Assembly (NCBI GenBank): GCA_018882885.1
Contig: VERG01000009.1
Coordinates: 1 to 57,381, forward strand
DNA from: Candidatus Nanopelagicaceae bacterium
Lineage (GTDB): Bacteria; Actinomycetota; Actinomycetes; Nanopelagicales; Nanopelagicaceae
Direction of reading: 5' to 3'
DNA: 57,381 nucleotides
Positions within the stretch are counted from its first letter, which is position 1. Every line of letters starts with the position of its first letter. The notes beneath the pieces were generated by a model. It was not told where the DNA came from. It ran no database searches and worked only from the letters and a program-made list of their open reading frames with translations. The position numbers and the translations under genes were made by a program. Below are positions 28,380 to 38,596 of the stretch, piece after piece.

Positions 28380-28524
28380 TTTTGAAGATTCATTTCCCTT
28401 CTAGTAAAGCGCATGACCCTACTTAGAAATCAGAATTTCTTTGGGGTAGATCATTTGGGAACTGAGAAGGGTGATTTTTAATTTGATTCAGGCAAAGCTC
28501 GCAAGATCAGGGTCAATACAAGAG
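28380..28524. other. Intergenic stretch before tRNA-Lys
   Basis: 145 bp between the DUF5671-like gene and tRNA-Lys on the other strand. No gene or convincing terminator seen. Confidence 0.5.
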
Positions 28525-28597
28525 TGGGTTGTGTAGGGATCGAACCTACGACCCGGTGATTAAGAGTCACCTGCTCTACCAACTGAGCTAACAACCC
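28525..28597 (-). tRNA. tRNA-Lys (anticodon CUU)
   Basis: Cloverleaf on the minus strand: acceptor GGGTTGT/ACAACCC, anticodon stem GGTGA/TCACC with loop CTCTTAA (anticodon CTT), T-arm GTAGG-TTCGATC-CCTAC, discriminator A. 73 nt; CCA not encoded. Confidence 0.97.
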
Positions 28598-28796
28598 GTT
28601 GACCGTGCGTACGGACAAGCGGGGGAAACTATAACCATATGCGCCTGAGATACCAATTCTGGGCATTCCTGAGGGCCCACCCTTCGAACCCTAGAACCTC
28701 GAGCTTTTCTTGCTTTACTCCGAATTTCCTGCCGATAACCTCGAACTCAATTTTGCGTCAAGGTGTTTTTTGAGGCTATTGCGGGAGAATCATGGT

Positions 28797-29660
28797 GTGA
28801 AGTTGCACCGAGGAAAAGCGGCAAGAAACAACCGGAAGTTGCACAAAGCATTCCCTATAGCTCTTTTGGCTATTTCAGCGATCAATATTTCAGCGGCTAA
28901 TGCTTCTGTATTTGAGACACAGAATAACTATCAATCTTCCTGGGAGTTGGCCATAACCAAGAAATTGGGTGAGTCGGCGCTAAGCAAAAAGGAGCTAATC
29001 AAGAGCGACCCAAGCAAGAGTGAACTAAGCAAAAGCGATCCAAGCAAAAGCGAACTAAGCAAGAGTGCGCAGAAAAGCCTCGAGATTGGCCTTACTTCAC
29101 AACAAACTTTAGAAATTCTCAAACAGATTCCTATTAAGGGTAGAGCGCCAAAAACTGGATACTCTCGCTCGGCCTTTGGTCCGCAATGGTCTGATGTAGA
29201 TCGCAATGGATGTGATACTCGAAATGACATCTTGAGGCGCGACCTAGTTAATGTTGTGTTCAGAGAAAAAACCAAGGATTGTGTTATTGAAAGTGGAATT
29301 TTAATTGATCCATTTTCAAATACTGAAATTAGATTTGAGCGTGGCTCAAAGAGCAGCATGTTGGTTCAAATTGATCATGTGGTTTCACTTTCTAATGCCT
29401 GGCAAACCGGAATTTTCCAAGCCAGTCTGAAAGAGCGCACCGCATTTGCCAACGATCCGATAAACCTTTTGGCGGTTAAGGGCTCACTAAATTCGCAAAA
29501 AGGCGATGGAGATGCAGCCACCTGGTTACCGCCCTACAAATCATTTCGCTGCAAATACGTGGCTCTGCAAATTAATGTTAAAGCGAAATATGGATTGTGG
29601 GTCACCCGAGCTGAACAGGAAGCTATGGTCAGAATTTTGAGCAGCCAGGAATGTAGATAA
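28797..29660 (+). CDS. Secreted HNH nuclease, DUF1524 type
   Basis: 287 aa. Signal peptide: basic start (KLHRGKAARNNRKLHK), hydrophobic core and an ANA cleavage site. A Ser/Lys/Asp-rich repeat linker follows (about residues 63-92), then the nuclease domain with IDHVVSLSNAW, FANDPINLLAV, NSQKGDGDAATWLPP and a C-terminal cysteine. Related secreted actinobacterial proteins act as extracellular nucleases. GTG start at 28797 has SD GGGAG; the frame extends to an ATG at 28710, which would spoil the signal peptide. It sits between two tRNA genes and just before the Tad pilus locus. Acquisition of external DNA or nucleotides is an attractive but unproven role. Confidence 0.85.
   Translation: MKLHRGKAARNNRKLHKAFPIALLAISAINISAANASVFETQNNYQSSWELAITKKLGESALSKKELIKSDPSKSELSKSDPSKSELSKSAQKSLEIGLTSQQTLEILKQIPIKGRAPKTGYSRSAFGPQWSDVDRNGCDTRNDILRRDLVNVVFREKTKDCVIESGILIDPFSNTEIRFERGSKSSMLVQIDHVVSLSNAWQTGIFQASLKERTAFANDPINLLAVKGSLNSQKGDGDAATWLPPYKSFRCKYVALQINVKAKYGLWVTRAEQEAMVRILSSQECR
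28983..29072 (+). repeat. 30-bp in-frame tandem repeat in the nuclease linker
   Basis: Three 10-codon units: SKKELIKSDP, SKSELSKSDP and SKSELSKSAQ (28983-29012, 29013-29042, 29043-29072). It keeps frame and forms a hydrophilic spacer between signal peptide and nuclease domain. Confidence 0.92.
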
Positions 29661-29754
29661 CTCTGCGCTTATTTGGGGAGTGTCGCCACCACCGAAAGAG
29701 AAATGATTAAATAAAAGCCCAAGGCAAAAAGCATGGGGAGAAATTCATGAACTT

Positions 29755-29874
29755 GCCATTGAGTTAGTGGGTTGTGCGACCGGTATTGAACATCGCCATT
29801 GAGATAGTGGGGTGTGCTACAGGTATTGAACATCGCCATTGAGATAGTGGGGTGAGCGACGGGGCTCGAACCCG
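29755..29874 (+). repeat. 40-bp tandem array made from the tRNA-His 3' end
   Basis: Three copies with a 40-bp period, marked by GCCATTGAG(A/T)TAGTGG at 29755, 29795 and 29835. The third copy is the real tRNA-His 3' end plus downstream flank. The two others carry mutated versions (GGTATTGAACAT where the tRNA has GGGCTCGAACCC), so they are decayed copies of the T-arm and acceptor. Confidence 0.9.
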
Positions 29875-29923
29875 CGACATCCCGGACCACAACCGGGTGC
29901 TCTACCAGCTGAGCTACGCCCAC
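29851..29923 (-). tRNA. tRNA-His (anticodon GUG)
   Basis: Minus-strand cloverleaf: acceptor GTGGGCG/CGCTCAC, anticodon stem CCCGG/CCGGG with loop TTGTGGT, T-arm GCGGG-TTCGAGC-CCCGT. Discriminator C and an encoded G at -1 (29924) are tRNA-His features. CCA is encoded at 29848-29850. Confidence 0.97.
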
Positions 29924-29924
29924 C

Positions 29925-30280
29925 ATGTCTTACCTGGCTTAGTTTCTTTAAGAAACAACCTGGTAATTCTTCATGCAAACCATCTCAAGATTTTGTCCTG
30001 GAGAGGTGATTGGCAAGAGCGTAATTCTAGCATCGCAAAAAAGCGCCTTGAAGCGTTATTAAACCGTCCCAGAGTGGGCAGCATCCGGAACCAAAGAAAG
30101 ATTCCTAAGCAGAGAGATTGCCCAACGAGCGTTTTCGCCAACAAAGGGTTAGGTGAGGATTCAACTAGTTAGACGCTGAGTAACACCCAGTAATACCTGG
30201 ATTTGAGTGCTTAAAAGTTATAAACAGGTCTTTCCTAAGGACACAAAGTTTGTCAGCCATCAATCGCCTATCAATAGGTC
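29925..30280. other. Intergenic stretch before the Tad locus
   Basis: 356 bp. Holds a GTTTCTTTAAGAAAC inverted repeat just upstream of tRNA-His and CCTATCAATAGG immediately before the CpaF start. The plus-strand open frame here overlaps the tRNA and has no family features. No gene called. Confidence 0.55.
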
Positions 30281-31483
30281 ATGAAAAACCCGGCTCGATC
30301 ATCGCGTGAGATAAAGAAACAAACTGAAGTCGTTCAAGAATTGAAATCCGAGATTGAGCGGATATCAAAATCTGATGGGAGAGCAAGAAGCGCAAATAGT
30401 TTAGTGAATCCTCTCGAAAACAATAATCTAAATAATTTCAGAGATGATCGCATTAAAGAAACTGGTGATGAATTTAGAATTGAAAGTGAAAACGAAGAAA
30501 GAAGTCTTAATTCAAGTAATGCGCCTTACGGAGCCCTCCAACCTTTACTTGACAATCCTGAGATAGAGGAAATTTGGATAAACTCACCACAACGTATATT
30601 TGTCGCAAAGAATGGGAAGTCAGAACTCACCAATGTTGTTCTAACCACAACACAACTCCAGGCAATCATGGATCGAATCTTGATGTGGTGTGGGAGAAGA
30701 ATTGATCTGGCACATCCATTTGTTGATGCCAGATTGCCTGATGGGAGTCGCCTTCACATATCAATCCCACAGATAACTGCAGAGCATTGGGCAATCAACA
30801 TAAGGAAGCATCTAATGAGGGGCAAGACTCTGCGTGATTTAGTCGAACTTGAAGTATTTGATAGCCAAATATTGGACCTTCTTCAAAGTTCAGTTAATCA
30901 GCGAAAAAACCTATTGGTGAGTGGATCAACTCAAGCTGGAAAAACAACCTTATTAAATGCCTTGGCCTCTGCAGTCCCAATCGGTGAACGAATAATTACG
31001 ATCGAAGAAGTTTTTGAACTTAAGCCAAGAGTTCCAGATTGCGTTGCCATGCAGACAAGAAGTGCCAGTCTGGATGGTGTGGGTGAAGTAAGTATTCGAA
31101 AGCTCATCAAAGAGGCGTTACGTATGCGGCCTTCTAGGCTAATTATCGGCGAGATTAGGGAGGCAGAATCGCTTGATCTACTGATTGCCTTGAACTCAGG
31201 TATTCCAGGAATGGCGACCATTCATGCTAACTCAGCACGGGATGCGATTAGGAAGCTACAGACACTTCCCCTCTTAGCAGGAGAAAACATCACTCAGGAT
31301 TTCATAACACCGACTGTTGCTCATGCCATTGATCTAGTTATTCATGTAGGTCTTGATGGCCTAGGTACTAGACGAGTGCTAGAGATCTGCAAAGTAAATG
31401 ATCGATGTGAAAATTCAAATATAGAGATGGAAAATCTATATTTATGGAAGGAAGATAAATATGTATCCGGCCTTTGCGATTAG
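30281..31483 (+). CDS. Tad pilus secretion ATPase (CpaF/TadA)
   Basis: 400 aa. The N-terminal 80 residues are charged and low in complexity. The ATPase core has Walker A GSTQAGKTT (K221), Walker B RLIIGEIRE (286-294) and the TIHANS histidine box (314-319). Powers assembly of Flp-type pili. It starts the Tad gene run here; no CpaE/TadZ precedes it. ATG without a clear SD. Overlaps the next gene by 23 nt. Confidence 0.93.
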   Translation: MKNPARSSREIKKQTEVVQELKSEIERISKSDGRARSANSLVNPLENNNLNNFRDDRIKETGDEFRIESENEERSLNSSNAPYGALQPLLDNPEIEEIWINSPQRIFVAKNGKSELTNVVLTTTQLQAIMDRILMWCGRRIDLAHPFVDARLPDGSRLHISIPQITAEHWAINIRKHLMRGKTLRDLVELEVFDSQILDLLQSSVNQRKNLLVSGSTQAGKTTLLNALASAVPIGERIITIEEVFELKPRVPDCVAMQTRSASLDGVGEVSIRKLIKEALRMRPSRLIIGEIREAESLDLLIALNSGIPGMATIHANSARDAIRKLQTLPLLAGENITQDFITPTVAHAIDLVIHVGLDGLGTRRVLEICKVNDRCENSNIEMENLYLWKEDKYVSGLCD

Positions 31484-32309
31484 TCCAATTATTTGCGCAT
31501 TCCTGGCTGCAATGATCTGTGCCATCGGTCTATTGATTGTTCAAAGTGGCTTTACTAGATTTGATTTGGGAAGAGGGTTCAGCAACAAGCTTAATAAAAT
31601 AAGACTGAAAACCCTATTACTGATATGCGTCTCAATGCTCTCAACTTTCATGGTGATGCTATTACTAACTAATTCAAAACAAATATCAATTGCAATTTCC
31701 ACGTTATCTACCTCAATTCCCTTTTTGATAAATAGGCAGAGAGCTGAAAAGGTGTTAAGAGCGCGGGAAAGTTCTTGGCCTGAGGTGATTGACTCCCTGG
31801 TCTCAGCTTTACAGTCCGGCGTTTCAATCTCGGATGCCTTACTAGCACTTGCCGAACATGCTCCAACTGCGCTCCGACCTAATTTCATCAAAGTGAAGTT
31901 CGCTGTTCAAAATGGAGAGGGTCTGGAGTTCGCATTAAGGAAAGAAAAAGAGGAGTTGAAATCTTCAATTTCTGATCAAGTCTTTGAAACTTTGATTGTT
32001 GCAAAGGAGTTTGGCGGTAGGGATTCCAATAATGCTTTGAGACTTTTATCTGAGTTTGTTCGTGATGACTTAGATGTCTTGGAGGAGATAAGAACCAAGT
32101 TTGGCTGGATCAAGAACTCTGCTGCGTTGGCGACTGTTGCGCCATGGATTCTGCTTCTTCTGCTTTCATCGCAGAGATCAACGGTAGAGGCTTTCTCGAC
32201 TAGCTCCGGTGTGAAAATTCTGGCCTGCGGAGTCTTTATGACGGCATTGGCCTATCTCTGGATGGAGCGAGTTGGTCGCATTCCAATCGCAGCCAGGGCG
32301 TTGCGATGA
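31461..32309 (+). CDS. Tad pilus inner-membrane protein TadB-like
   Basis: 282 aa. Two N-terminal and two C-terminal membrane helices around a cytoplasmic T2SF/TadB domain (RARESSWPEVIDSLVSALQSGVSISDAL). Forms the pilus platform with the TadC-like protein. SD AAGGAAG before the ATG, within the end of cpaF. Its stop TGA (32307-32309) overlaps the first ATG of the following repeat array. Confidence 0.9.
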   Translation: MYPAFAISPIICAFLAAMICAIGLLIVQSGFTRFDLGRGFSNKLNKIRLKTLLLICVSMLSTFMVMLLLTNSKQISIAISTLSTSIPFLINRQRAEKVLRARESSWPEVIDSLVSALQSGVSISDALLALAEHAPTALRPNFIKVKFAVQNGEGLEFALRKEKEELKSSISDQVFETLIVAKEFGGRDSNNALRLLSEFVRDDLDVLEEIRTKFGWIKNSAALATVAPWILLLLLSSQRSTVEAFSTSSGVKILACGVFMTALAYLWMERVGRIPIAARALR

Positions 32310-32409
32310 GGTTGTACTGGGAATACGTGGGGGAAATGAGATGAGGTTGTACTGGGATTACATGGAGGAATTGAGATGAGGTTGTACTTGGAATACGTGG
32401 GGGCACTGC
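32305..32409 (+). repeat. 35-bp repeat array forming three overlapping mini-ORFs between tadB and tadC
   Basis: Three 35-bp units (32305-32339, 32340-32374, 32375-32409), each starting GATGAGGTTGTACT. Each unit is one mini-ORF: 32306-32344 MRLYWEYVGEMR, 32341-32379 MRLYWDYMEELR, 32376-32414 MRLYLEYVGALR. Every stop overlaps the next start as ATGA; the first ATG overlaps the tadB stop and the last stop overlaps the tadC ATG. Each unit also has a purine-rich SD (GGGGG or GGAGG) about 7 nt before the next ATG. Removing the array would leave a direct ATGA overlap of tadB and tadC. Confidence 0.92.
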
Positions 32410-32410
32410 G

Positions 32411-33193
32411 ATGAATCCAACTTTATTTCAAAGCGAGTCATTTTTATCACTTCTGGTTGTAGCGCCATTACTTTTTTGGGGAGTTTGGATTGCGAGCGTA
32501 GAAAGCTTTGATGAGTTAAATTCTACAAACTTAATTCTAAAAAAGATGGAATCTGGCGGTAGATCTACTCGCAAAGCTTTACTCCCATTTTATTTTTTGG
32601 TTGCTTCTTTGGGAGTCGCGATTGTTGCAGTCGCATTCTTTACTAAAGGTGATTACTTAATCCCAATGATTGCGCTATCGGTCATGACGAGCGCATTTGT
32701 GACGATTGCCAAACGTAATAAAGTGAAAACAACTATTAATTTAACAAAGCAATTAGAAAGCGAACTTCCTGCCCAGATTCAATTATTAACAATTCTAATT
32801 TCGTCAGGTATTAGCCCTGGAAGGGCAATAGCCATTCTGGCCAATAAATCTGAGTCTTTAAGTTCTACTGCTTTCCTAAATGTGGTGCGAAATATTGAAA
32901 TGGGAGATTCAATTATTGAAGCTCTGGATAAACTAAAAAGAGATTTTGACTCCAATTCACTTCGTCGATTCGTAACCAGTCTGATCTTAGGGATAGAGCG
33001 TGGGTCAACATTAGGACCGATTCTGATTTCTCAAGTGAGAGATGCCAGGATGGCAAGCAAAAGCGAGATTATGGCTAAAGCGGGGAAAGCGGAGATTGGG
33101 TTGATGATCCCGGTCGTATTTTTGATTCTGCCAATATCAATTCTCTTCGCATTATGGCCCTCTTATCAACAGCTGGGCGGCTTCTTCTCTTGA
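32411..33193 (+). CDS. Tad pilus inner-membrane protein TadC-like
   Basis: 260 aa, T2SF-domain platform protein: N-terminal membrane helices, a cytoplasmic stretch (TKQLESELPAQIQLLTILISSGISPGRAIAIL), and two C-terminal helices (GLMIPVVFLILPISILFAL). The ATG is the end point of the 35-bp mini-ORF array, so its translation is likely fed by reinitiating ribosomes. Confidence 0.9.
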   Translation: MNPTLFQSESFLSLLVVAPLLFWGVWIASVESFDELNSTNLILKKMESGGRSTRKALLPFYFLVASLGVAIVAVAFFTKGDYLIPMIALSVMTSAFVTIAKRNKVKTTINLTKQLESELPAQIQLLTILISSGISPGRAIAILANKSESLSSTAFLNVVRNIEMGDSIIEALDKLKRDFDSNSLRRFVTSLILGIERGSTLGPILISQVRDARMASKSEIMAKAGKAEIGLMIPVVFLILPISILFALWPSYQQLGGFFS

Positions 33194-33300
33194 TTAATAC
33201 AGCCAGGTTTATCCACAGATTTTGACCGCCTCGACAATGAATGTCAGTGGCAATACAGGATTACCTCTTAACAAGCCATAGCGAATAGGGAGCGATATCG

Positions 33301-33798
33301 ATGAGATCAGTCGTTGAGAAGATCGAAGGCATTAAAACTGTTACAACATCTGCTGTTTATGGGGCAAGCCTAAAAGGAATTTCCTTTATGAACTTGGCCA
33401 AGAGTACTTTCAATCAGAAATTAGAGCGTAAATTGGATAGAAGCAATAACTTCAAATTATCTTCCCAGGCACAAGTTGGGCATTCATTGACTCACACGCT
33501 AAATGAACAAACTCCTACTAAAGAGCAAGGTGATGAAATCTCCAGCAAGGAGTGCGGAGAAAAATTTTCAACTAAAGCGCCAAGAGAATCTCGCAACGAG
33601 AGTTATATGTCTCAGGATACTGCGCTACATAGAATTATCGATTCAGCGCGGAAAGACTCCGAGAGGGGCGATGTGCCGGGTTGGGTCCTTGTGGTTTTAA
33701 TGACTACGGGTCTCGTCACAGCAATATGGACTATTGCTGCCCCGAGATTAAGCTCAATTTTGAAGAACTCGCTTGATGCTATGAATGGAATTCGATGA
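33301..33798 (+). CDS. Pilin-like protein of the Tad locus
   Basis: 165 aa. Long hydrophilic N-terminal half, then SERG|DVPGWVLVVLMTTGLVTAIWTIAAP (ERG at 121-123) and a short tail. Position after tadC and the ERG-plus-hydrophobic helix suggest a Flp pilin or minor pilin. The N-terminal extension is much longer than in ordinary Flp prepilins, so the start may be internal (ATG at 33607). SD AGGGAG supports 33301. Overlaps the next gene by 4 nt. Confidence 0.65.
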   Translation: MRSVVEKIEGIKTVTTSAVYGASLKGISFMNLAKSTFNQKLERKLDRSNNFKLSSQAQVGHSLTHTLNEQTPTKEQGDEISSKECGEKFSTKAPRESRNESYMSQDTALHRIIDSARKDSERGDVPGWVLVVLMTTGLVTAIWTIAAPRLSSILKNSLDAMNGIR

Positions 33799-34247
33799 GA
33801 TTTACCTTCAAGCTATACGACAGCAACCATGAATCCATACATGAATCCATACATGAATCCATACATGAATCTAGACAAGAATCCAGACAAGATTCGGACC
33901 ACAAATCTATACATCAGGATTTCGAGCGAGGATCAATCGAAGCTGGTCTGACTTTTATTCCAACCACTGCATTTTTCTTGATGGTGTTACAGCTGGTTTT
34001 ATCTGGTGGATTTCAGGTGGCAGAAAAATTGTCTCTACAAAATGTAGTAACAAGAGCCGCCCTTGGAGGCAGCCAGGAAGTTGAACTTTTTGCTTCCGAT
34101 AAGCGTGAATTGAGTACAGAGACAGTTCCATTGCCTGGAGGAGGAGAGTTAATCTTGGCGCGCTCTGAAATTTCCAGTCCGCGGATTACTAATTTGCTCA
34201 CTGGCAATCCCAAGATGAAAGCTGAAGCGATTGCGATTCGCGAGTAA
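33795..34247 (+). CDS. TadE-like pseudopilin with repeat-built N-terminus
   Basis: 150 aa. Residues 12-39 are seven 4-residue repeats; then FERGSIEAGLTFIPTTAFFLMVLQLVL (ERG at 44-46), the single membrane helix typical of TadE-like proteins, and an outer domain. ATGA overlap with the pilin-like gene before it and 17-nt overlap with the gene after it. Confidence 0.75.
   Translation: MRFTFKLYDSNHESIHESIHESIHESRQESRQDSDHKSIHQDFERGSIEAGLTFIPTTAFFLMVLQLVLSGGFQVAEKLSLQNVVTRAALGGSQEVELFASDKRELSTETVPLPGGGELILARSEISSPRITNLLTGNPKMKAEAIAIRE
33828..33911 (+). repeat. 12-bp in-frame repeat encoding HESI-type units
   Basis: Seven 12-bp units, the first three identical (CATGAATCCATA), later ones diverging step by step. 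They encode HESI three times, then HESR, QESR, QDSD, HKSI. The gradient of decay away from the 5' end suggests recent expansion there. Confidence 0.92.
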
Positions 34248-34758
34248 GAAGCTTTCCCCGAGAGCTCGCTTTCGCAGCCATCCTTTACTCTCAGGACTGG
34301 ACGTTGATGAACGTGGTTCGGCAGTTTCTGAGTTTGTCCTATTAGCAACGCCTCTCTTTCTACCAGCACTGCTGTTTTTTAACGCCATGCATAACACCGC
34401 GGATGAGGAGATTAATACCTCTATGTTGGCACGCCAGGCGGTACGTGCATTCGCAACCGCACCAGATCTATTTACCGGTCACCAACGGGTAAAAGTAATT
34501 CTTGATGAATATACCAAGTTGGAAGCTTCGGCAAACTCTTTGAATACTTGGAATTCGACAAGTTCAAGTAGAGAAATTGGGGGCAAATTTACCTACAACA
34601 TCAAATGTTTTGCAGAGAAATGTCTAACCCCTGGTTCGCTTATTGAGTTAGAGCTCTATCGAAAAATTGAATCCATTGATGGGCTTGAGGAAAGTAAGAA
34701 TCGCAAAGCTAGCGCGGTTGCCAGAACATATGTAGATAAATGGCGGGATGCGCCGTGA
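34231..34758 (+). CDS. TadE-like pilus protein
   Basis: 175 aa. DERG|SAVSEFVLLATPLFLPALLFF (ERG at 27-29, with the prepilin-type E at +5 after G) gives one membrane helix; the rest is an outer domain with two cysteines (CFAEKC). TTG start inside the end of the preceding gene. Its stop forms GTGA with the first codon of the 39-bp array. Confidence 0.75.
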   Translation: MRFASKKLSPRARFRSHPLLSGLDVDERGSAVSEFVLLATPLFLPALLFFNAMHNTADEEINTSMLARQAVRAFATAPDLFTGHQRVKVILDEYTKLEASANSLNTWNSTSSSREIGGKFTYNIKCFAEKCLTPGSLIELELYRKIESIDGLEESKNRKASAVARTYVDKWRDAP

Positions 34759-34871
34759 TTAAGTGTAATGAGCAGAGATTAAGTGGATGCGCCGTGATTA
34801 CTTGTAATGAGAAGCGGCTCAGTTGTTGATCAGCCATTACAGATAACGAGCAGTAGTTAGAGGGATGATCA
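34755..34871 (+). repeat. 39-bp repeat array filling the spacer between two pilus genes
   Basis: Three 39-bp units (34755-34793, 34794-34832, 34833-34871) fill exactly the space from the GTGA stop overlap to the next GTG start. Units 1 and 2 agree at about 27 of 39 positions, unit 3 is more decayed. A mini-ORF at 34755-34829 reads VIKCNEQRLS then VITCNEKRLS, one per unit. GATGCGCC precedes the GTGA at both unit junctions. GAGGG lies 7 nt before the GTG at 34872. Confidence 0.8.
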
Positions 34872-35396
34872 GTGAGAATTGTTGACGCTCGAAAGGCTCC
34901 AGGTTTATTGGTACAACCTTTGAATAGATTATTCAGGGCACCGGAAGAGTTCGACTCTGAAAGAGGTTCGATATCTCCACTCGTCATGCTCTATTTCACA
35001 GTTGCTATGTTGATGGCATTTGTTGTTTCTAATGTCGCCTCAACTTACGTGGCGCGCAGAGACTTGATTAATACAACCGAGGCCGCTCTTTCAATCGCCA
35101 CTCAGGAGCTAGATGAATGGGTTTACTACTACAGATTGCCAACCAAAGGGATTCCAGGATCAAACAGTGAGCTAGTTCCAATTAACTGCAGTGATGCAGG
35201 AAGCACATTTTCTCGGGAATTAGCTGCCATGAACACAAAACCATCTCCGGCGCGAATCATCAGCTATAGGTGTGATGGGTATTTATTGGGCGCAACAGTT
35301 GAACAGGAATACCAATTGCCCTTTGCTACATCAATCTTAGGAGTTGAATCATTCACAAATCGAGTAGATGTCTCGGTGCAGTCCACTTTTAAATAA
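34872..35396 (+). CDS. TadE/TadG-like pilus protein
   Basis: 174 aa. SERG|SISPLVMLYFTVAMLMAFVVS (ERG at 30-32) is the membrane helix; the outer domain has two cysteines (PINCSD, SYRCDG) that may pair. Last gene of the Tad run. GTG start with SD GAGGG, at the end of the 39-bp array. Confidence 0.72.
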   Translation: MRIVDARKAPGLLVQPLNRLFRAPEEFDSERGSISPLVMLYFTVAMLMAFVVSNVASTYVARRDLINTTEAALSIATQELDEWVYYYRLPTKGIPGSNSELVPINCSDAGSTFSRELAAMNTKPSPARIISYRCDGYLLGATVEQEYQLPFATSILGVESFTNRVDVSVQSTFK

Positions 35397-35401
35397 TCCA
35401 C

Positions 35402-35407
35402 TATTCT
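35402..35407 (+). promoter_or_regulatory. -10 box for leaderless prfB mRNA
   Basis: TATTCT, 7 nt before the ATG at 35415; no SD. Confidence 0.55.
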
Positions 35408-35414
35408 TGGCGCC

Positions 35415-36518
35415 ATGGCCGAGCGCGAGATTAACTCTGAGATTGCTGGGTTAAGCTCAACTTTGGCATCAATCGAATCTGTAATCGATATCGGAAAGCT
35501 TCGCAAAGAGCAGATTGAACTAGAAGCCAAAGCCGGCGAACCAGATCTTTGGAATGACCCAGATAATGCACAGAAAGTAACTAGTGCGCTTTCTCGTGTT
35601 CAGGGAACCATAAACAAGGTGACCGCACTGCGTTCGCGGATTCAAGATCTACCCATCATGTTGGAGTTAGCGGAGGCCGAAGGGGATAGCGGCGCAAAAT
35701 CTGATGTAGAGAAAGAGTTGGATGCTCTCGCTGCTCTAATCTCTGAGTTAGAGGTACAGACCCTTCTTAGTGGTGAATATGATCATCGTGATGCGCTAAT
35801 AACCATTCGATCTGAAGCGGGCGGAGTAGATGCTGCGGATTGGGCAGAGATGGTTTCGCGAATGTACTTTAGATACTGCGAACGACATCAGTATGGGGTA
35901 AATGTTTTGGAAACCTCTTACGCTGAAGAGGCCGGGATTAAGTCAACCACCTTTCGTGTCAGCGGCTCATATGCCTATGGAACATTGTCTGTAGAGCAAG
36001 GAACACATAGATTGGTTCGAATCTCACCTTTTGATAGTCAAAATCGTCGACATACCTCTTTCGCCGGAGTCGAAGTGGTTCCCGTAGTAGATCAAAGCGA
36101 CCACATTGATATTGATGAGAAAGATATCCGAGTTGATGTTTACCGATCTTCTGGTCCTGGAGGTCAAGGAGTAAACACAACAGATTCCGCGGTACGTATT
36201 ACCCATATTCCTACTGGAATTGTTGTTTCCTGCCAAAATGAAAGATCGCAAATCCAAAATCGAGCAACAGCAATGGCGGTCTTGCAGTCGAAGTTATTGG
36301 AAAAACGCAATCAGGAAGAGCGCGCAAAGATTGATGCGCTTCGTGGTGATACATCTGGATCTTGGGGGAATCAAATTCGTTCCTACGTTCTTCATCCATA
36401 CCAAATGGTGAAGGATCATCGCACTGATTTCGAAACAGGTAATACTCAGGCGGTCCTTGACGGGGATTTAGATGGCTTCATAGCGGCAGGAATTCGCTGG
36501 AGGCGAGAGAAAAGGTAG
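35415..36518 (+). CDS. prfB: Peptide chain release factor 2
   Basis: 367 aa. Releases proteins at UGA and UAA. SPF tripeptide at 204-206 (RF2-type stop recognition) and GGQ at 249-251 (PGGQGVN, the hydrolysis site). One continuous frame: the programmed +1 frameshift that autoregulates prfB in many bacteria is absent. Leaderless start. Upstream of ftsE, as in other actinobacteria. Confidence 0.96.
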
Positions 36519-36697
36519 TCTTAAAAGCTTGCCTTTCGATGAAAGCTAAAAGGTTCAAGTGTCTGACTCAATTGAATTGAGGAATCTCAGAGATTTCCGT
36601 TGATTTAATTAGTAGATTTCTGAGAATTACGCTCAATTTAGGTTTTTTCTCACTCAAAACGGGCGATTTTGTCCAAAACTTTAACCCCCAAACTACC
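36519..36697. other. prfB-ftsE spacer with inverted repeats
   Basis: Contains the perfect inverted repeat CTCAATTGAATTGAG (36567-36581) and an imperfect hairpin at 36581-36598, with no clean T-run. Possible weak terminator of prfB; no gene. Confidence 0.4.
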
Positions 36698-36703
36698 TAA
36701 AAT
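36698..36703 (+). promoter_or_regulatory. -10 box for leaderless ftsE mRNA
   Basis: TAAAAT, 7 nt before the GTG at 36711. It decides the start over the upstream TTG at 36669. Confidence 0.6.
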
Positions 36704-36710
36704 CACACCC

Positions 36711-37400
36711 GTGATTCGCTTTGAAAATGTAACAAAGGTCTACTCCAAGACCGATCGCCCTGCTCTCGACAATGTGAGCATTGATATTGAAAAGGGCGAG
36801 TTTGTTTTTCTTGTGGGTCTATCAGGTTCTGGAAAATCTACCTTCCTTCGTTTGGTGCTTCGAGAGGAGAAGCCAACCTCTGGAACTATTCACGTTGCTG
36901 GTAAAGATTTAGGAACACTCTCAAATTGGAAAGTGCCTGAATTGCGCCGCCAGGTTGGCACGGTATTTCAAGATTTTCGTTTATTACCAAATAAGACTGT
37001 TGCCGAGAATGTGGCATTCACATTACATGTTTTAGGTTTTTCTAAGAAGGAAATTGCACGTGAGGTTCCCGAGGTATTAGAACTTGTTGGATTAGAAGAT
37101 AAAGCAGATCGCAAACCAGGGGAGTTGTCTGGTGGTGAGCAACAACGTGTAGCAATTGCTCGCGCATATGTGAGCAATCCAGCGATTCTCATTGCTGATG
37201 AGCCAACCGGAAACCTTGACCCAGCTACATCTGTTGGAATTATGAAGTTGCTAGATCGCATTAATCGCGAGGGCACCACTGTCGTGATGGCGACCCATGA
37301 TGCGGGAATTGTGGATCAGATGCGCAAGCGTGTTATTGAGTTAGACAAAGGCCAAGTCATTCGCGATCAGGCGCGTGGCGTGTACGGATATACGGGTTAA
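36711..37400 (+). CDS. ftsE: Cell division ATP-binding protein
   Basis: 229 aa from the GTG at 36711, matching the family's usual length and its [11 protein letters not shown] start. Walker [11 protein letters not shown]-loop VFQDFRLL, signature [14 protein letters not shown], Walker [14 protein letters not shown], and the H-loop histidine in ATHD. With FtsX it signals across the membrane to peptidoglycan hydrolases at division. The frame is open to a TTG at 36669 (243 aa), which lacks support. Confidence 0.95.
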
Positions 37401-37402
37401 TC

Positions 37403-38305
37403 ATGCGCGCAAGATTTATTTTGAGTGAAGTTGGAATTGGACTCCGCCGAAACCTCACAATGACCTTCGCCGTCGTAATCACCGTGGCGATTTCCTTGTC
37501 GTTGCTAGGTATCGGATTGCTTTCCAACGCCCAGGTTCGGGTTATGAAGGATTATTGGTACGACAAGATTGAGGTGTCGGTCTACCTCTGCGGTTCTCTG
37601 TCAGATTCACCATCTTGCTCTGGCGGAGTTGTTACCCCCGAGCAACGTCTTGAGATTCAAAATGATTTAGAAGAGTTGCCGGTTGTTGAGACGGTTTACT
37701 ACGAGTCTCAATCAGAGGCATTTGAGCGATTCCAAGAGCGGTTTAAGGATTCCGCTATTTCACAAAATGTCACCGCAAATCAATTACCGGAATCTTTCCG
37801 AGTTAAATTGAAAGACCCAACTCAGTTTGCTGTTGTGCAAAGCGCTTTTTCGGGAAGACCTGGAGTTGATGTTGTCCAAGACCAGAGATCAATTTTAGAG
37901 AAATTCTTCCGCTTGCTAAATGTCTTGCGAGATGGAGCCTTGGCGATCGGCTTTGCTAGCGTTCTAACGGCCGCTTTATTGATTAGTAATACTTTAAGAA
38001 TCGCGGCCTTTAATCGTCGCCGTGAAACCAATGTAATGAAACTAGTTGGCGCGAGTTCATTTTCAATTCAGCTTCCTTTTATTCTTGAGGGAGTCTTCTC
38101 GGCAATTCTTGGTTGGGGCTTCTCTGTAGGTCTTCTATCGGGATTGAAATACGTTATTGATGATCGAATCGCTCCTTTGTTAACCTTCACAAACTTCTTC
38201 ACCTGGAGCGATGTTTGGTTGGCATCGGCTTATTTGTTGGCAACTGGAGTGGTGGTTTCATCACTGGCCTCAGTGCTGACTTTGCGTAAGTACTTGAAGG
38301 TCTAG
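37403..38305 (+). CDS. ftsX: Cell division protein FtsX
   Basis: 300 aa. First membrane helix near residues 20-40, an outer domain with a cysteine pair (YLCGSLSDSPSCSGG), then three membrane helices in the C-terminal half. Two nt after ftsE, so co-translated. The outer domain normally binds an amidase activator or peptidoglycan hydrolase. Confidence 0.94.
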   Translation: MRARFILSEVGIGLRRNLTMTFAVVITVAISLSLLGIGLLSNAQVRVMKDYWYDKIEVSVYLCGSLSDSPSCSGGVVTPEQRLEIQNDLEELPVVETVYYESQSEAFERFQERFKDSAISQNVTANQLPESFRVKLKDPTQFAVVQSAFSGRPGVDVVQDQRSILEKFFRLLNVLRDGALAIGFASVLTAALLISNTLRIAAFNRRRETNVMKLVGASSFSIQLPFILEGVFSAILGWGFSVGLLSGLKYVIDDRIAPLLTFTNFFTWSDVWLASAYLLATGVVVSSLASVLTLRKYLKV

Positions 38306-38350
38306 TTCGCTCCTTTTAGGTATTAGATGCCTTCTTAGGCGTTAGATATT

Positions 38351-38445
38351 ATCTGAGCTGTTAGTTATCGGCTGAGCTGTTAGTTATCGGCTGAGGTGTT
38401 AGTTATCGGCTGAGGTGTTAGTTATCGGCTGAGGTGTTAGTTAAC
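38351..38445 (+). repeat. 19-bp tandem repeat, five copies, between ftsX and the S41 protease gene
   Basis: Units of GGCTGAGGTGTTAGTTATC at 38351, 38370, 38389, 38408 and 38427. The two first have GAGC instead of GAGG and the last ends in AAC. An older, decayed unit may precede (CTTAGGCGTTAGATATT). Non-coding in all frames by stops. Confidence 0.93.
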
Positions 38446-38596
38446 TTCTCTGTTAATAGAATTCTTCTGAGGTAATGGATTGAGAGTCGGTAAGCTCAAT
38501 TTCGTTCCAAGGGACTTGAGAAACCGACCCAAATTGAGTTACCTTTCGTGTCAGGATTTGCTGGTTTACTAAGAAGATATGTCGGAGTTATAGCTG

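Follow-up and report, generated by a model that had tools for sequence, protein, structure and literature searches.

A tandem array follows the tRNA-His gene

The stretch of DNA analysed here (the window) is the whole 57,381-base contig VERG01000009.1 of a Candidatus Nanopelagicaceae bacterium (assembly GCA_018882885.1). It carries an intact tRNA-His gene, flanked on one side by a converging gene whose product has a GmrSD_C (HNH-type) domain and on the other by the divergent gene for a TadA/CpaF-type ATPase, the first of a Tad pilus cluster (Table 1). As tRNA-His lies on the minus strand, the tandem array that we describe here, about 2.65 copies of a 40-bp unit at 29755-29860 on that strand, is downstream of the tRNA, and runs from its 3' end towards the converging gene, which ends at 29660. 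The GmrSD_C-domain protein adjoining the Tad cluster has a repetitive, KSELSKSDPS-type linker; its gene is kept beside tRNA-His in three genomes of the genus (G008, G016 and G023) and lies elsewhere in seven others. No terminator was found in 29600-30300, and the GC skew shows no lasting switch at the array. An 85-aa open reading frame spans the tRNA and the array (29669-29926), but a unit of 40 is not divisible by 3, and a coding reading was rejected.

Table 1. Genes, repeat units and tandem arrays at the tRNA-His and Tad locus (positions in the window)
Feature	Position	Strand	Evidence or remark
Gene converging on tRNA-His, GmrSD_C (HNH-type) domain	28710..29660	+	Pfam PF07510, 2.2e-20; open frame
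In-frame 15/45-bp tandem array in the linker of the GmrSD_C gene	28980-29067	+	TRF
Repeat unit U2, partial, 26 nt	29755..29780	-	3/26 differences to U0, 3/26 to U1
Repeat unit U1	29781..29820	-	3/40 differences to U0
Repeat unit U0, made up of the terminal 13 nt of tRNA-His, 13 nt flank and 14 nt spacer	29821..29860	-
T-arm piece placed inside the unit by the initial annotation	29861..29874	-	7/14 positions agree with the spacer of the other copies, close to chance
tRNA-His (gtg), intact	29848..29923	-	ARAGORN; Rfam RF00005, 61.6 bits
Gene for a TadA/CpaF-type ATPase, which opens the Tad pilus cluster; divergent from tRNA-His	30281..31483	+	PF00437, 5.2e-37
35-bp x 3.1 array, from the stop of one T2SSF gene to the start of the next (called TadB/TadC)	32305..32414	+	TRF
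12-bp x 5.2 array, in-frame, within a small ORF of the Tad region (33795-34247)	33828..33889	+	TRF
39-bp duplication of a gene 3' end (stop 34758) and flank	34746..34814	+	27/30 matches at lag 39; TRF reports period 19
19-bp x 4.8 array, spacer after ORF 37403-38305 (called ftsX)	38352..38473	+	TRF

The initial annotation, made from the letters of the sequence, had proposed 40-bp tandem copies at the 3' end of tRNA-His, and these were confirmed. Three 40-nt copies lie in register at 29755-29794, 29795-29834 and 29835-29874, with a spacing of 40/40, and TRF reports a repeat at 29748-29860 with a period of 40, 2.8 copies and 89% matches. The best lag score of the tRNA with its downstream spacer was 52, while the maximum in 300 dinucleotide shuffles was 12, and for this reason the array is real and not a product of chance.

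The extent of the copied tRNA depends on the repeat register

In the register used by the initial annotation, which includes the T-arm in the unit, the tRNA part shows 9/26 differences to either extra copy and the flank only 0/14 and 1/14. From this it had been concluded that the T-arm and acceptor end are repeated with substitutions, and that the flank is the better conserved part. The repeat is most uniform when it is read from 29860, in the acceptor strand of the tRNA, and the divergence between copies is then even (3/40, 3/26 and 3/26), with variable columns in 3/13 positions of the tRNA part and 1/13 of the flank (Fisher P 0.59). Since the copies differ evenly in this register, the flank is not demonstrably better conserved, and the contrast seen in the first register is largely an effect of the register itself.

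The repetition of the acceptor end and the count of 9/26 thus stand, while the claim for the T-arm does not: its 14 nt match the copies at 7/14 positions (P 0.04-0.07), and where the tRNA has these bases the copies read GATGTTCAATACC, so that what looked like a substituted T-arm in the extra copies is probably spacer of non-tRNA origin. Two of the last 12 tRNA nt also differ in the copies. Exactly how much of the tRNA was copied is uncertain (about 7 to 24 nt), because the start of the lag-40 block moves with the mismatch penalty: the strong block starts at tRNA nt 70 (29854) with a penalty of 2 or 3, and reaches nt 53 only with a penalty of 1 or 1.5. The T-arm match being borderline, the original copy could have taken in more of the tRNA, with later decay.

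Occurrence of the array in related genomes

Among the 24 genomes of the genus that were searched, with one genome per species, the array was found in the source genome only. Fifteen of the other 23 have a tRNA-His with a readable downstream flank, none of them with the array; of the remaining ones, G010 is cut inside the tRNA and seven show no tRNA-His. G008, G016 and G023 keep the same downstream gene, yet are devoid of the array. G009, which is closest by TadA (91%), lacks an assembled tRNA-His. The initial annotation had named one copy number common to all relatives as the outcome that would count against its own proposal of past integration; this did not occur, and an array confined to one of the genomes searched fits a local duplication.

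The surroundings of tRNA-His vary within the genus. In four genomes (G005, G006, G014 and G015) prfB directly adjoins tRNA-His. In G001, three contigs (L092, L093 and L094) end in tRNA-His, and two upstream contexts, one with Tad and one with prfB, meet a single downstream context. We read this pattern as mixed strains rather than as an element; this one MAG seems to combine versions of the locus with and without a Tad cluster separating tRNA-His from prfB.

Tandem arrays around the Tad locus

The array at tRNA-His has company. Counted with a TRF score of 60 and with overlapping rows merged, six tandem arrays lie in 28980-38473, about 10 kb around the Tad pilus genes, and nine in the 57.4 kb of the window, compared with 1 in 225.0 kb sampled elsewhere in the same genome (15 stretches). 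The other tRNAs of the genome had 0 arrays in 76.7 kb (27 loci, overlaps counted twice). The density per noncoding kb is raised as well, with 4 arrays in 1.3 kb of the zone and 1 in 12.7 kb of the background. The duplication at 34746 is the same kind of event as that at tRNA-His. In G009, a 35-bp array (L228, 1911-1994) occupies the junction of the same two Tad genes as the 35-bp array of the source genome; the unit length is the same and the letters differ. The 35-bp copies of G009 are 100% alike, which suggests, on the sequences compared, turnover within the species.

The arrays follow a rule of length. Among 42 arrays from eight genomes, a unit length divisible by 3 was found in all 24 situated in open frames of 120 codons or more, against 2/18 elsewhere, a test that is partly biased, as units of other lengths are prone to disrupt a frame. 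The pattern is explained by duplications that arise at random and are then filtered by selection on the frame. Phase variation by frame shift was also considered, and is not favoured by the same partly biased test, in which the arrays in frame have units divisible by 3.

The Tad zone is repeat-rich in many, though not all, related freshwater actinobacteria. In the genus, the Tad neighbourhood of G008 carries 9 arrays in 20.0 kb (background 0 in 60 kb) and that of G016 carries 7 in 19.8 kb (0 in 40 kb); the figures are 10 in 16.4 kb for G017 (1 in 35 kb), 3 in 14.5 kb for G013 (2 in 20 kb) and 2 in 12.9 kb for G003 (0 in 40 kb). Three further genomes, counted at this neighbourhood alone, have 2 in 10.6 kb (G023), 2 in 3.7 kb (G009) and 3 in 4.0 kb (G010), and G018 contributes a background only (0 in 40 kb). 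Array-poor genomes are G004 (0 in 19.6 kb; background 2 in 40 kb), G001 (0 in 3.1 kb; 1 in 40 kb), G011 (0 in 9.0 kb), G020 (0 in 4.9 kb), G015 (0 in 3.9 kb), G005 (1 in 20 kb; 1 in 40 kb), G007, G014 and G022 (1 each in 20 kb) and G006 (1 in 18 kb); among these, G005, G006, G014 and G015 are without Tad at tRNA-His.

In ten outgroup genomes, the region from -4 to +6 kb of TadA holds 45 arrays (89.5 kb) and the background 13 (273.1 kb), a ratio biased upward by the choice of twelve loci that already showed arrays, two of the twelve genomes being without background. Over all 60 outgroup loci, the density is 0.26-0.32 arrays/kb in three of the four 2-kb bins between -4 and +4 kb, 0.08 in the bin of TadA and 0.08-0.17 further out (0 in the last bin, of 3.6 kb). 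Our literature searches, which combined Nanopelagicales with the Tad pilus, and tandem repeats with Flp/tad or with Nanopelagicales, showed no description of such a zone among the papers listed.

Two candidate causes of the zone were rejected. One was the replication terminus: C25:21622, which we take to be a dif-like site, lies in a sampled, array-free stretch of another contig (C25), and hence the zone is not at the terminus. The other was Tad as the sole cause, as Tad clusters without arrays occur in G004, G007, G011 and G022. The neighbourhood is widely shared, with prfB in 32/60 and sucA in 32/60 outgroup loci, and Tad and position are therefore confounded. The data do not discriminate between relaxed selection, a raised duplication rate and selection on pili as causes.

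Origin of the array

Tandem duplication, by slippage or by illegitimate recombination, is very probably the best explanation of the array. The copies run head to tail with even divergence, as expected of a tandem duplication or VNTR. Replication slippage had been offered as one option by the initial annotation, and it gains support from further tandem duplications in the window that also sit at gene ends and have units of comparable size, namely the 39-bp doubling of a gene 3' end at 34746 and the 35-bp x 3 array at the gene junction at 32305. We infer the molecular step and the order of events as follows. Strand slippage in replication, or illegitimate recombination, would have copied 40 bp in tandem, starting within the tRNA-His acceptor strand and extending into the spacer; this stretch would then have been copied again, and the copies would since have drifted by about 8-12%. 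The tRNA would have stayed intact because the extra copies sit 3' of the gene. The location would be explained by the repeat-rich zone around the Tad pilus cluster, where like duplications are found at several gene ends and in linkers.

One observation is not predicted by a duplication of the tRNA end alone: the distal unit matches the leader of sucA better than background does. The spacer GATGTTCAATACC might thus be a relic of a sucA leader that followed an ancestral tRNA-His, joined to the tRNA end by the later duplication. In relatives with the order tRNA-His-sucA, the leader matches the distal unit (29755-29794) at 27/40 positions in G013 and at 25-26/40 in G014, G017 and G020, compared with a background maximum of 25/40 in 1.16 Mb; by locus, the matches are 27/40, 26/40, 26/40 and 25/40 at L249, L005, L007 and L008. 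The order of sucA and Tad is itself probably old, because sucA is near Tad in 32/60 outgroup loci. Nevertheless, the resemblance was noticed post hoc and by eye, and its P of about 0.01 is a hand estimate that takes account of the number of places inspected. The middle unit resembles the leader less closely, the relatives with the HNH neighbour have no such relic, and the sucA gene of this genome, located on another contig, is preceded by its own complete leader. We consider a sucA origin of the spacer unlikely.

Another origin offered by the initial annotation is that elements would have integrated serially at tRNA-His and been lost again, leaving the copies behind as att sites. Integration at the 3' end of tRNA-His does occur in other genomes. 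A 47-kb prophage in IMG/VR (IMGVR_UViG_2930334738_000001), which we used as a positive control, has the tRNA-His end plus flank at both of its ends, one of which has an integrase ORF (PF00589, 5.4e-23) next to it. This was the one record with a clear att pair, and accounts for two of the six stretches inspected out of the 27 in viral_contigs that match the tRNA-His 3' end pattern. In marine Actinomarinales, tRNAs are insertion hot spots according to the available part of one report (PMC7771536), and a class-level relative (G028) has an exact copy of 18-19 nt of its tRNA-His 3' end, without the flank, 114 nt further on.

Against this origin, the copies have nothing between them and keep an equal 40/40 spacing that includes flank and spacer. 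An identical core is also missing, with the two differences in the last 12 nt of the tRNA and 7/14 matches in the T-arm, where an att pair would have a long identical core at both ends. No integrase was found on the array's contig (C20, the whole window) among the matches listed, the integrase-family matches listed for this genome being on C25, C29 and C33. The unit pattern had 0 matches in viral_contigs and genome_contigs, from which the genome itself was possibly left out. The 15 genus relatives with a readable flank are without the array, and gave no sign of an occupied site, as no integrase lay on the tRNA-His contig among the matches listed. As in the tRNA-targeted genomic islands recognised by Islander, a tRNA 3' fragment lies downstream of an intact tRNA in the same orientation. 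Unlike those islands, the copies form a contiguous array without an island or integrase, and the interval is far below the 2 kb that the available text on Islander gives as the minimum between tRNA and fragment (PMC4383910). Leftover att sites are therefore not supported, and we regard them as very improbable.

Att-like patterns were seen at other loci. The copy in G028 (L096, tRNA-His at 1965-2040) is one of four further flanks at P 0.000 in our scan of tRNA flanks, the other three being neighbouring tRNA genes with mutually similar T-arms. In G034 (L097), a degraded 3' half of tRNA-His with a similar flank lies about 1 kb downstream of the intact gene, and could be either a true att relic or a segmental duplication.

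A functional RNA, either the processed tRNA-like 3' ends for RNA maturation of the initial annotation or an rtT-like small RNA freed from the tRNA transcript, is hardly credible: although the array lies directly downstream of a tRNA and the analogous array at E. coli tyrV is annotated with the rttR small RNA and tpr, the copies retain 2/5 and 1/5 of the T-stem pairs and 5/7 and 5/7 of the acceptor pairs (5/5 and 7/7 in tRNA-His), Rfam finds only two tRNAs above the gathering score in 28400-31000 and leaves the copies unmatched, the array folds no better than shuffles (z 0.17), and the readable relatives are without it.

Discussion

The array is an ordinary tandem duplication at a tRNA end; the kind is already known and the example is new. 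In E. coli K-12 (NC_000913), an array with a 178-bp spacing and 95% identity lies downstream of tyrV and overlaps the tRNA 3' end. Both there and here, an array of about three copies grows out of a tRNA 3' end, and the unit, repeated downstream, includes the tRNA end and its flank. The unit, however, is 40 bp here instead of 178 bp, no RNA or protein product is annotated here, and both the tRNA and the phylum are different, so that we draw an analogy only and claim no homology. The copy number of rtT varies, as seen, in the portion of the report available, in a 175-bp VNTR at rtT RNA that distinguishes two genomes of Salmonella Paratyphi A (PMC2658671). In some genomes of lake bacterioplankton, noncoding structural variants have been linked to intergenic tandem repeats and slippage (PMC9426551); by contrast with the present case, the available part of that report names neither Nanopelagicales nor Tad loci nor tRNA ends.

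Two cautions follow for the reading of such loci: a repeated tRNA 3' end is not by itself evidence of past integration, and the repeat register that is chosen decides what appears conserved.

The array itself being ordinary, the zone in which it lies may be of greater importance. Genome streamlining is expected to remove repeats, and yet a stretch centred on Tad is many times denser in arrays than the rest sampled, in the source genome and in several relatives, with arrays that are in frame inside genes and of any length outside. As a tentative proposal, which we hold as somewhat doubtful, the Tad neighbourhood (sucA or HNH gene, tRNA-His, Tad, prfB, ftsEX, smpB) may be a local hot zone of tandem duplication in many freshwater actinobacteria with streamlined genomes, one in which duplications would arise at a raised rate confined to the region, and not merely persist under relaxed selection. 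Such a zone would continually remodel the surface-pilus genes and the spacers between them, in frame, within a genome that is otherwise nearly free of repeats. If a local mutational process does drive the zone, it would offer a testable case of region-confined duplication at a surface structure.
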